From the NCBI RefSeq assembly GCF_007997155.1, contig NZ_VORT01000010.1, positions 62,001 to 126,000 of the forward strand: a stretch of DNA of 64,000 nucleotides, given 5' to 3'. Below are positions 41,953 to 44,490 of the stretch, in pieces. The number at the start of each line of letters is the position of its first letter. The first letter of the stretch is position 1. The position numbers were made by a program, and so were the translations under genes. The notes beneath the pieces are model-generated. The model saw nothing but the letters and a program-made list of their open reading frames with translations, searched no databases and was not told the DNA's origin. The DNA is from Aequorivita antarctica (GTDB lineage Bacteria > Bacteroidota > Bacteroidia > Flavobacteriales > Flavobacteriaceae).

Positions 41953-42474
41953 TCACTTACATTTCGAACAATCAGGCTCCCCAATCAAATTCCCTTGTTT
42001 GTCCAATTCATATTTGCAGCATTGGCTGAATTTTTCCTTTAGAATATCTTTGGAGCGCCTTATCCGTGCCTTTACGTTTGCAAGACTTATTTCTAGGATT
42101 TTTGCTGCCTCCTCTTGTTTCTTTCCCTTTATATAAACCAATTCGACGGTTTCTCGATACAAAGTAGGTAAATCATTTATAAATCTATCAAAACAACAAT
42201 AGGCTTCATTCTTTTCTGAACCGCTCTCCTCAATTTCCTCAATGGGAGCTATATATTTTGATTCCTTTTTGAAATGATTGGCAATTTCATTCCGCGCAAT
42301 CTGAAAAAGCCATGCTTTTACTTTTTCTTCCTCCTTGACCTGATGCAGGTTTTTATGAATTTTCAAGAAGGTATTTTGAAAAATATCGCTGGTGGCGTTT
42401 TCGTTTTTTACTTTTTTTAAAATAAAAAAATAGAGTTCCTCATTGAACCTATTCCATATCTTTTCTGTTTCCAT
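41953..42474 (-). CDS. sigZ: SigZ-type ECF sigma factor with cysteine-rich tail
   Basis: This is a 173-residue sigma-70 family protein. Region 2 includes SDIFQNTFLKIHKNL and KAWLFQIARNEIANHFKK. Region 4 includes LPTLYRETVELVYIKGKKQEEAAKILEISLANVKARIRRSKDILK. The tail after residue 145 has the cysteines CCKYELDKQGN ... CSKC, as in SigZ-like proteins, and could bind metal or sense thiol state. ATG 42474 (METEKIW) is preferred to ATG 42489, which abuts a hairpin. The metallothionein-like gene lies 49 bases upstream on the same strand. Confidence 0.88.
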   Translation of the reverse strand: METEKIWNRFNEELYFFILKKVKNENATSDIFQNTFLKIHKNLHQVKEEEKVKAWLFQIARNEIANHFKKESKYIAPIEEIEESGSEKNEAYCCFDRFINDLPTLYRETVELVYIKGKKQEEAAKILEISLANVKARIRRSKDILKEKFSQCCKYELDKQGNLIGEPDCSKCK

Positions 42475-42489
42475 ATTTAAAAATAACAT

Positions 42490-42515
42490 AAAGGTTGGCT
42501 TTTATACCAACCTTT
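42490..42515. promoter_or_regulatory. Stem-loop between the metallothionein-like and sigma factor genes
   Basis: AAAGGTTGG / CCAACCTTT form a 9-bp stem with an 8-base loop between the stop at 42523 and the sigma ATG at 42474. On the minus strand it is followed after a few bases by TTATTTTT, so it could be a partial terminator that lowers sigma expression relative to the upstream gene. Confidence 0.6.
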
Positions 42516-42522
42516 ATTTAAT

Positions 42523-42636
42523 TTAACAACAACTGCATTTGTCGCATTCACATTTTACACAAGGGCAGTTATTTTGCGAACAGTCGTTGCAGTTACAATT
42601 GGTGCAATCGCAGTTGGTACATTTACAAGTATTCAT
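42523..42636 (-). CDS. Metallothionein-like cysteine-rich small protein (37 residues)
   Basis: On the minus strand ATG 42636 opens a 37-codon frame ending TAA at 42523. Fourteen of the 37 residues are cysteine, at positions 4, 6, 9, 11, 14, 16, 19, 24, 26, 29, 31, 34, 36 and 37, mostly as CxC and CxxC with Asn, Asp and Lys between, and there is one Pro. There are no aromatic residues. This composition is that of a metallothionein, a cytoplasmic protein that chelates Zn, Cu or Cd. It resembles no specific family that I can name. It lies just upstream of the Cys-tailed sigma factor, suggesting joint control by metal or thiol stress. Expression is not proven. Confidence 0.75.
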   Translation of the reverse strand: MNTCKCTNCDCTNCNCNDCSQNNCPCVKCECDKCSCC

Positions 42637-43245
42637 AATTACAGTTTTTAATATTCATAGAGTAGACTTATAAATGGGGAAAAGGATACATTTTATAGAT
42701 TAATGTTTCAGTTTACTTCGGTGGCAAGTTCTATATGACCACTAATTGCTGGATATGGACCATTCTAATAATGAGTGGAAGTGGTGGTTTTAGTCTTTAG
42801 TTAAATAGAGGGACCGTACTATTTTGCTATTGGTGGAATTTGATGGATACAACTGAAAGGTTTTTTGCTATTTTATTCGTTTAATCTATTATCGAGATGC
42901 CTCCTAAAATATATAAATACGATTATTGAATATAAAGCTACTATACTCATAAAGATAATATACCTTCGGCGGGTGTAAGGCCTTTTATTTTCATCAGAAT
43001 TTCTCAACTACACTGTTAAAACAACCAATCATTCTAATTGGTACTTGTTGATTTCTCGCCTTTATATTCCCTCAAACACATTAGTATTATTTTTTATTTA
43101 TTTGGCTTAGCAGATTACTGACCAGTCGATGTTGTATTCTATATAGTTATTTATATTGACTATTCAGATAGCATTTTCAGCCTGCTTTTCCAACTTAATT
43201 TATATTAACCTAAATACTATACAGCTTTACTTGTATAAAAAACTT
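42637..43245. other. Intergenic region without supported genes
   Basis: These 609 bases are strongly AT-rich with frequent stops in all frames. A 15-codon frame on the minus strand near 42955-43000 (MKIKGLTPAEG) could be a gene remnant but is too short to call. I see no promoter box that fits the downstream gene. Confidence 0.5.
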
Positions 43246-44490
43246 ATGAAAATTATTTTATCCTGTTTTATCCTATTGATTTCTAGTAGTCTTTACCCTC
43301 AAGTTGGTATAGGTACTTCAGTGCCTGATTCATCTGCTGCTCTAGATGTATTTTCCAACAGTAAAGGACTTTTAATGCCGCGATTATCCACTGTAGAAAG
43401 AGATGCAATTTTACTTCCAGCTAATGGCTTAATGATTTACAATCATACATTGAATGATGGTCAATTAAATATTGGAACTCCCTTAGCTCCAGTTTGGATA
43501 GGTATCAAATCGCAAGAGGGCCCTATGATTGATTCTGTAACTGAAAGTGCGGTTGCAACTATCGCATCACCAACTAAAATATTGGTGCCAGGGATGACGA
43601 TGTCGCCTGCTTTGGGCACTTACCTTGTTTTATTCAATGCCCAAATGTCTAATGAAACAGTGAGTCCTGCACAAGGTGTTATAGATTTAAACAAGATATA
43701 TAATGATTTAATGGCTATCCCGGCCACTAACACAACCCACGGGCCTGTGTTTGGTAATGGGGAGGTTTTGACGCCGGGTATTTATGACTTGGCTGCGGCA
43801 ACATCGGTTGCGGGAACACTTACTTTGGATGGGGGTAGCGACTCAAATTCCGTATTTATTATCAGAACTGGCGGTGCATTTTCTACGGGAGCTTCCTCAA
43901 CGGTAGTTTTGACCAATGGAGCAAGCTCAAATAATATATTCTGGGTGGCAGAAGGAGCTATATCTATGGGCGCTACCACAACAATGAAAGGAACCTTGCT
44001 AGCACATACTGGGGCGGTTACAATGGGTGCCGATTCAAATCTTGAGGGAAGAATGTTTTCTACTACTGGTGCTATAAGCATGGGGACGGGTACTCTTAAT
44101 GCTCCCTCGGGAGTTTCCTATATTGATTTAGGAGTCCTTTCCACATTCGTAAAATTTAGCACTAATGGCGCAATTTCAAATTCTGGTGTCTCTACGATCA
44201 ATGGTGATGTGGGCAATGCCGAAGGAGCCATTACTGGTTTTGGTGGGATTAACGGGAACGTCTATGGAAGCGGAGGAACATATAACTCGGAGGCCACTTA
44301 CGGTATATATAAAAATGGGGTGGAAGTAGTGAATTCTAGTAGAACAATTAATGTGCATCTCTCAATAGTGTCTCTACAAGCAGTAGTTACTGTAATCGCA
44401 GGGGACGAAATTGATATTCGGTGTAAAGTTGATACTGGCGAAGCAGTGCTTAACCATAGAACCCTATCGCTGATTCGTTCCGGATATTAA
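43246..44490 (+). CDS. Exported DUF3494 ice-binding-like protein with permuted domain order
   Basis: This 414-residue exported protein has a signal peptide (about 1-17, MKIILSCFILLISSSLYPQ), then the flavobacterial surface motif GIGTSVPDSSAALDVFSNSK. The DUF3494 beta-solenoid half follows (about 165-285: LTPGIYDLAAATSVAGTLTL, SVFIIRTGGAF, NNIFWVAEGAISMGA, GRMFSTTGAISMGTG). After it comes a segment that normally opens DUF3494 (LGVLSTFVKFSTNGAISNSG, INGDVGNAEGAITGFGG, about 290-340), then a C1q-like beta tail (VVNSSRTINVHLSIVSLQAVV). So the two halves appear in reversed order, or the second is a partial extra domain. DUF3494 proteins bind ice or act as adhesins. ATG 43246 is the start because the signal peptide begins there. 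No T9SS tail is present. Confidence 0.82.
   Translation: MKIILSCFILLISSSLYPQVGIGTSVPDSSAALDVFSNSKGLLMPRLSTVERDAILLPANGLMIYNHTLNDGQLNIGTPLAPVWIGIKSQEGPMIDSVTESAVATIASPTKILVPGMTMSPALGTYLVLFNAQMSNETVSPAQGVIDLNKIYNDLMAIPATNTTHGPVFGNGEVLTPGIYDLAAATSVAGTLTLDGGSDSNSVFIIRTGGAFSTGASSTVVLTNGASSNNIFWVAEGAISMGATTTMKGTLLAHTGAVTMGADSNLEGRMFSTTGAISMGTGTLNAPSGVSYIDLGVLSTFVKFSTNGAISNSGVSTINGDVGNAEGAITGFGGINGNVYGSGGTYNSEATYGIYKNGVEVVNSSRTINVHLSIVSLQAVVTVIAGDEIDIRCKVDTGEAVLNHRTLSLIRSGY

Follow-up and report, generated by a model that had tools for sequence, protein, structure and literature searches.

Comparison of a 64,000-nucleotide stretch of Aequorivita antarctica DNA (hereafter the window) with related genomes revealed that many Bacteroidota share a conserved unit of two genes, a short Cys-rich gene followed by a SigZ-like ECF sigma gene. 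We think it probable that this unit is a self-contained metal homeostasis operon, which combines a metal-sensing SigZ-like sigma factor, a metallothionein-like peptide, an attenuating hairpin and a feedback loop (Table 1). The gene and the module were established by comparison, and their anatomy strongly suggests the function proposed here. The hairpin, the promoter and the wide conservation were all absent from an earlier note on this DNA, and no published description of a peptide–SigZ-like module was found in the open-licence literature.

Table 1. Features of the peptide–sigma operon in the window
Feature	Position	Strand	Basis or detail
ECF-type promoter	42662-42689	(-)	-35 GTATC 42685-42689, 17 nt, -10 GTCTAC 42662-42667
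Cys-rich metallothionein-like peptide gene	42523-42636	(-)	37 codons, 14 Cys, ATG to TAA
Hairpin with T-rich tail, terminator-/attenuator-like, between peptide and sigma genes	42488-42517	(-)	folding and covariation
SigZ-like ECF sigma factor, 173 aa	41953-42474	(-)	Pfam Sigma70_r2 and Sigma70_r4_2 above cut-off
Linker Cys93-Cys94, between sigma regions 2 and 4	42193-42198	(-)	sigma alignments
Sigma Cys tail Cys152, Cys153, Cys169, Cys172 (CC...G.L.G...C..C)	41956-42021	(-)	sigma alignments

Cys-rich peptide gene

Translation confirmed the earlier note's description of a minus-strand frame running from ATG to TAA with 14 Cys in 37 codons, and no other ATG-started frame in the window with a length of 25-60 aa reached 25% Cys; no comparable Cys-rich frame appeared in 60 dinucleotide shuffles. 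When 299 genomes of the family were searched, matches to the 14-Cys peptide were found in 16 genomes from 14 genera, that of the window included, and all 14 Cys were retained in all 16 matches, with the other residues variable. Since the Cys are kept in this manner, we conclude from the comparison that the frame is a real gene. An additional 14-Cys peptide in genome G217 (L052) was missed by the peptide search and revealed by the context of its sigma gene. Either this type or a sister type with 11 Cys was present in 57 of the 299 genomes (17 and 40 genomes, respectively).

In a pattern-based scan for sigma relatives, which used the sigma alignment, covered one genome per species in 84,980 species and from which the best 80 of 89 loci were kept, a Cys-rich frame of 35-40 aa was located within 700 nt upstream of the sigma gene in 78 of the 80 loci. 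These frames contain 14 Cys in 74 cases, 13 in three and 12 in one, and the exact spacing recurs in 71 of the 78, so that the lack of conservation of the frame and its Cys positions, which the earlier note had named as grounds for rejecting it, was not observed. In the 71 exact-pattern genes (69 distinct peptides), all 14 Cys columns contained both TGT and TGC, indicating that the amino acid is kept and the base sequence is not.

The Cys form a CxCxxC lattice of fixed spacing, in which the spacer residues are mostly polar, and the non-Cys residues of the 71 peptides include no Trp, no Tyr, one Phe and two His. The peptide has the sequence features of the broad metallothionein class, being small and Cys-rich, with CxC and CxxC motifs and few or no aromatic residues. 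MymT is a bacterial metallothionein, and SmtA and the metallothioneins (MTs) of Pseudomonas share with the window peptide the small size, the richness in Cys and the CxC and CxxC motifs. According to PMC7387436, Pseudomonas MT holds metal in a Cys9His cluster within an SmtA-like fold, whereas the window peptide lacks His and sets its 14 Cys in a regular CxCxxC lattice. The window peptide matched no Pfam or NCBIfam family at E ≤ 1, and none of the 16 homologues matched a Pfam family at E ≤ 10, in searches whose HMMER filters may discard short biased peptides. No credible relative of the peptide was found in the PDB, and the peptide was not found on plasmids or in viruses, the latter being scanned with short patterns.

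Linkage of the peptide and sigma genes

A sigma gene lies directly downstream of 15 of the 16 peptides of this type, which we assign together with their sigma factors to clade A; the exception is L007, a 14-Cys peptide with no adjoining sigma gene. Clade-A sigma factors (E < 1e-60) were found in 17 of the 299 family genomes and had the peptide beside them in 16, the exception being G226 (L051), and none of 19 other SigZ-like loci in these genomes had a Cys-rich peptide upstream. The gap between the two genes was shorter than 70 nt in 71 of the 78 loci of the wider scan and 160-260 nt in five; these stretched gaps occur at L071, L088, L116, L120 and L125. Among the best 80 of 89 sigma relatives, carriers are mostly Flavobacteriaceae. 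The carriers beyond this family presumably include Roseivirga, Echinicola, Portibacter, Brumimicrobium, Pedobacter and Kaistella, an assignment that we take from record titles and largely from general knowledge of the taxonomy.

Sigma factor and its conserved Cys

The sigma gene is located directly 3' of the peptide gene on the same strand, as the earlier note had stated, and the gap is 48 nt from the peptide stop rather than the 49 bases given there. Alignment of relatives places the sigma start at 42474 (METEK), and the longer start in the list of open reading frames, 42489, falls inside the hairpin. Matches to PF04542 and PF08281 above cut-off, together with a structural model that resembles ECF sigma factors in the PDB, place the protein among the ECF sigma factors. 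Its best NCBIfam models were those of SigZ, TIGR02959 and NF007215, both aligned over nearly the whole length; because the scores fell under the curated cut-offs (138.3 vs 168.65 and 152.6 vs 212, respectively), we call the protein SigZ-like, not SigZ. SigZ of a Priestia plasmid is 33% identical to it, and its closest relatives belong to Aequorivita, with 84% identity for both A. soesokkakensis and an Aequorivita MAG. Compared with SigZ as defined by the two NCBIfam models, the clade-A group and its sister group (clade B, below) are marked by the upstream peptide partner and a G.L.G...CxxC tail.

The Cys-rich tail attributed to the sigma factor in the earlier note was borne out, with both CC and CxxC, and a further CC was found in the linker. 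An alignment of 61 sequences, built with 60 of the 80 loci and without L142 because of a stop codon, contained 17 invariant residues, six of which are Cys (93, 94, 152, 153, 169 and 172); the invariance of the linker CC was partly selected, since one of the two scan patterns contains CC. Of these Cys, all but Cys172 were invariant (15/15) in the sigma factors found via the peptide, and Cys172 was present in 14; one clade-A sigma factor, L008, lacks Cys172. The structural model shows an ordinary ECF fold, in which the linker is disordered and the short tail is modelled poorly (pLDDT about 56-76). The sigma gene has no conserved neighbour able to encode its anti-sigma factor.

These properties recall CorE and CorE2 of Myxococcus xanthus, which PMC8999054 and PMC3107203 describe as ECF sigma factors without a linked anti-sigma factor, the activity of CorE-like factors requiring a C-terminal Cys-rich domain and the CXC motif of the linker. 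Like them, the window sigma factor has no linked anti-sigma factor and carries a Cys motif in its linker and a short Cys-rich extension at its C terminus, and the four tail Cys, the counterpart of the CorE-like Cys-rich domain, are present in 61 of 61 aligned rows. CorE has six Cys in a 38-residue tail, whereas the window sigma factor has CC...CxxC in about 24 residues, and the linker motif is CXC in CorE-like factors and CC (C93, C94) in the window sigma factor, which for this reason was not filed as CorE. CorE controls copper-handling genes, whereas the one standout target of the window sigma factor is its own operon with the metallothionein-like peptide. The CorE group corresponds to ECF44, with CorE2 now placed in ECF238, and PMC3107203 counts 21 CRD sigma factors, which come from Proteobacteria, Acidobacteria, Verrucomicrobia and Nitrospira, not Bacteroidetes. 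By analogy, the window sigma factor may work like CorE.

Promoter element

The promoter of the window operon ends 25 nt before the peptide ATG and matches the family pattern exactly. This pattern, GTATCYTT...RTC, was found upstream of 77 of the 78 peptide genes, with its end located 24-27 nt from the ATG in 75 of the 77. A strict version scanned over 16 genomes matched 14 of 15 operons, missing that of G293, and five positions elsewhere, compared with six matches for the reversed control. When a position weight matrix (PWM) built from the 78 operon sites was applied to 565 kb, 82 sites exceeded 14 bits, namely the 78, the window operon and three others, and none did so in one mononucleotide shuffle; the window site, which lay outside the training set, scored 39.7. 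The three extra sites (L134:5761 (-), L137:2183 (+) and L137:5757 (-)) are located in the two loci that lack the peptide. The element precedes a TonB receptor gene in both of these loci and, in L137, also a cation-efflux gene (PF01545) directly before the sigma gene; TonB receptors are not metal-specific, and these sites are candidates for a wider regulon. In the window's own genome, a search allowing up to two mismatches found the operon as the exact match, no second site with zero or one mismatch, and 18 others, all with two mismatches, against 28 in the control; a wider regulon in this genome was rejected, as no candidate rose above noise.

The clade-B pattern matched 11 of 13 operons and one position elsewhere, with no match in the control. 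The -35 word was GTATC in 77 of 78 clade-A operons and GCATC in 32 of 34 clade-B operons, and the clade-B promoter shares the 17-nt spacer and GTCT with clade A, in a scan limited to GNNTC words. This group-dependent shift of the -35 word is an argument for each sigma factor recognising the promoter of its own operon. The proposal of the earlier note that the sigma factor drives the module is supported by this shift as well as by the occurrence of the promoter, which in the 16 genomes was common to the operons and elsewhere not above control. The sequence TAnnTTTG, which we take to be the housekeeping -7 element, was found in the T-rich tract before the sigma gene in 23 of 78 loci, compared with 1 of 78 before the peptide gene; an extra basal promoter before the sigma gene is therefore possible, but not general.

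Intergenic hairpin

The regions between the two genes folded better than mononucleotide shuffles (p ≤ 0.05) in 70 of 78 loci. Covariation was analyzed in all 61 regions of 38-52 nt plus that of the window (62 aligned, 60 distinct); two-sided changes were present in 11 of 11 pairs, 93.2% of the cells were paired, and 0 of 500 shuffles reached any of five measures. Sliding the hairpin partners abolished the signal, in a control that favours the structure because it was read off the same sequences. Downstream of the stem, most regions have a T-rich tract that leads to the sigma ATG, an arrangement that fits an intrinsic terminator with partial read-through. The hairpin is not essential, because it was non-significant in 8 of the 78 regions (one of which, L125, still has a clear stem) and because L016, L249 and L250 have no space for it. 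The clade-B gaps also fold into hairpins, as judged by folding alone. No known RNA family was matched at the hairpin, the sole match in the window being a sub-threshold microRNA elsewhere.

Sister system and other SigZ-like groups

The sister system, named clade B after a joint look at the sigma tail and the peptide, consists of a peptide of about 33 aa with 11 Cys upstream of a related sigma gene; the sigma factors of the two clades were 34% identical in the one pair measured. The peptide was located upstream of 13 of 13 sigma genes in a first set and 21 of 40 in a second; all 34 of these loci were inspected, and one pair, L209, was broken. The damage at this locus (G188) affects the peptide frame as well as the sigma gene, as if the two had been lost together. 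In total, 71 of the 94 sigma matches from the 299 family genomes were inspected, G047 included. In a tree of 72 sigma factors, including 20 of the 80 clade-A loci, the 33 usable clade-B rows fell on one side of a weakly supported branch (79). Peptide presence required three changes on this tree, and a four-group labelling likewise required three, compared with a mean of 32.9 for shuffled labels.

A search of the 299 genomes with one 11-Cys query gave 40 matches, 35 beside a sigma gene and five without. Four of the latter (L265, L267, L268 and L269, from three genera) have the 11-Cys pattern intact with no adjoining sigma gene, and the fifth, L266, has lost three Cys. The five genomes concerned are 66-89% complete; the sequence that follows each peptide was read through, and no sigma factor of this kind was found in these genomes by a scan scoring some candidates per genome.

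The other 19 of the 40 second-set sigma genes have no upstream Cys-rich frame, and four of them (L210, L212, L213 and L224) encode Cys tails of another type. Before these four genes an autoregulatory-looking TGCGTC...CGTC was seen by eye, and a scripted scan matched two of the four. In three loci of one family (L256, L258 and L259), an 8-Cys peptide of 26-27 aa is encoded after the sigma gene, not before it, about 630-715 nt from the sigma start. TGCATC or TGCGTC ... CGTCTT was seen by eye just before the sigma gene in these loci, unmatched by the scripted scan.

Metal-linked neighbours

Arsenic-type genes adjoin 3 of the 80 clade-A loci, with ArsR matched, ACR3 above cut-off and an ArsC-like gene below cut-off, and across the 80 loci no metal gene is found consistently beside the operon. 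A phylum-level search for SigZ-like factors gave matches in 21 of 395 genomes, and 19 contexts were read. The arsenite methyltransferase ArsM is encoded downstream of two of these 19 SigZ-like genes, in one case with an intervening gene, and ArsI/CadI downstream of two, all above the NCBIfam cut-offs; the loci concerned are L254, L264, L260 and L262. The presence of arsenic genes near SigZ-like relatives points to soft metal(loid)s as the putative signal of these sigma factors, with arsenite, Cd, Zn and Cu as candidates for the metal. Responsiveness to arsenic may extend more widely across the SigZ family.

Proposed mechanism and alternatives

In the mechanism that we favour, a thiophilic metal(loid) ion would bind the six sigma Cys (linker CC, tail CC and CxxC) and switch the sigma factor on, an activation modelled on CorE and CorE2. 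The active sigma factor would recognise GTATC-17-GTCTAC before its own operon, in the window's genome the one target above noise. The two genes would be co-transcribed, the transcript yielding first the 37-aa, 14-Cys peptide, which would bind metal in the cytosol. The hairpin and the U-rich tract would terminate most transcripts after the peptide gene, and read-through would yield less sigma factor, so that the positive feedback stays weak; uptake of the metal by the peptide would then deprive the sigma factor of its ligand and close the loop. The suggestion of the earlier note that the small protein buffers the metal is favoured only indirectly, by the CxCxxC lattice, the near absence of aromatic residues, retention of peptides without an adjoining sigma gene in four genomes and the metal and arsenic neighbours of some relatives.

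A short ORF rich in Cys, with a covarying terminator-like hairpin between it and the regulated gene, could also be a Cys-responsive attenuator, in which a leader peptide with no job of its own stalls ribosomes when Cys-tRNA is scarce, the hairpin refolds and the sigma factor is made. Polycysteine leader ORFs, likewise placed before the regulated gene, are reported to work in this way in mycobacteria (Canestrari 2020, as mentioned in PMC13236596). The Cys of the window peptide have fixed spacing in a lattice with mostly polar residues between them and no Cys runs; Cys-rich peptides are retained without the downstream gene, the 11-Cys pattern in four genomes of three genera and the 14-Cys type in L007 alone, and the order is swapped in three loci. 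The peptide is also kept in several operons in which the hairpin is not significant or has no room. Fixed spacing, retention and swapped order argue for a working protein, and the sister peptide, intact in four genomes with no sigma gene, appears to have a role apart from the downstream gene; we regard an attenuator of this kind as quite unlikely.

ECF sigma factors are usually paired in operons with anti-sigma factors, and such pairing would suit a small anti-sigma factor or co-regulator, with the peptide holding the sigma factor inactive through shared metal or disulfides until a metal or oxidant strips it. Tight co-inheritance of the peptide with certain sigma lineages, and peptide types that differ in step with sigma groups, agree with this possibility. 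We nevertheless consider it unlikely, since the composition of the peptide offers few hydrophobic residues for binding sigma regions 2 or 4, the peptide is kept with no adjoining sigma gene in four genomes, and L134 and L137 retain the sigma gene and the promoter element with no peptide. That most of the striking conserved residues are Cys, that oxidants release metal from thiolate clusters, and that a DsbA/thioredoxin-like gene is located upstream of one locus, L071, would fit a sigma factor sensing disulfide stress and a peptide acting as a thiol store or ROS scavenger, not as a metal buffer. However, CxCxxC lattices are typical of metal clusters, and metal and arsenic genes are repeatedly found close to some relatives, making a thiol or redox buffer highly improbable.

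The anatomy argues strongly for a metallothionein-like effector joined to an ECF sigma factor, probably metal-sensing, in one autoregulated, attenuated operon. With about even confidence, we read the operon further as a minimal homeostat, in which the ECF sigma factor would be the sensor, with a regulon that in many genomes is one operon, the peptide would be both the effector and the negative feedback that replaces an anti-sigma factor, and the RNA attenuator would set the ratio of buffer to activator. The same joint reading, held at the same even odds, has the homeostat recurring in two sigma groups, each with its matching peptide type, and a third lineage with a Cys-rich peptide after the sigma gene. 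The module would supply SigZ-like factors with a candidate signal and a candidate target, the two-gene device would make metal sensing without an anti-sigma factor testable, and the defined ECF promoter could act as a biosensor in Bacteroidota.

Genomic surroundings

No constant third gene of the operon was found across the 80 loci, and most of the recurring neighbours stem from close relatives (Arenibacter and Aequorivita). The alcohol dehydrogenase gene downstream of the window operon was rejected as a member, being 467 nt away and having a related gene near 3 of the 80 loci. An ice-binding-like protein (PF11999) is encoded at window positions 43156-44490 (+), divergent from the operon. The same genome contains a second SigZ-like sigma gene (G000:C32:324479-324970, L231), which has neither a Cys-rich peptide nor a CC...CxxC tail. 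Mobilisation-type genes were seen by eye near the operon or sigma gene at L116 and L137, suggesting transfer by mobile elements, and in Aequorivita sp. CIP111184 the operon is duplicated on one contig, with the two copies (L072 and L073) about 16 kb apart.
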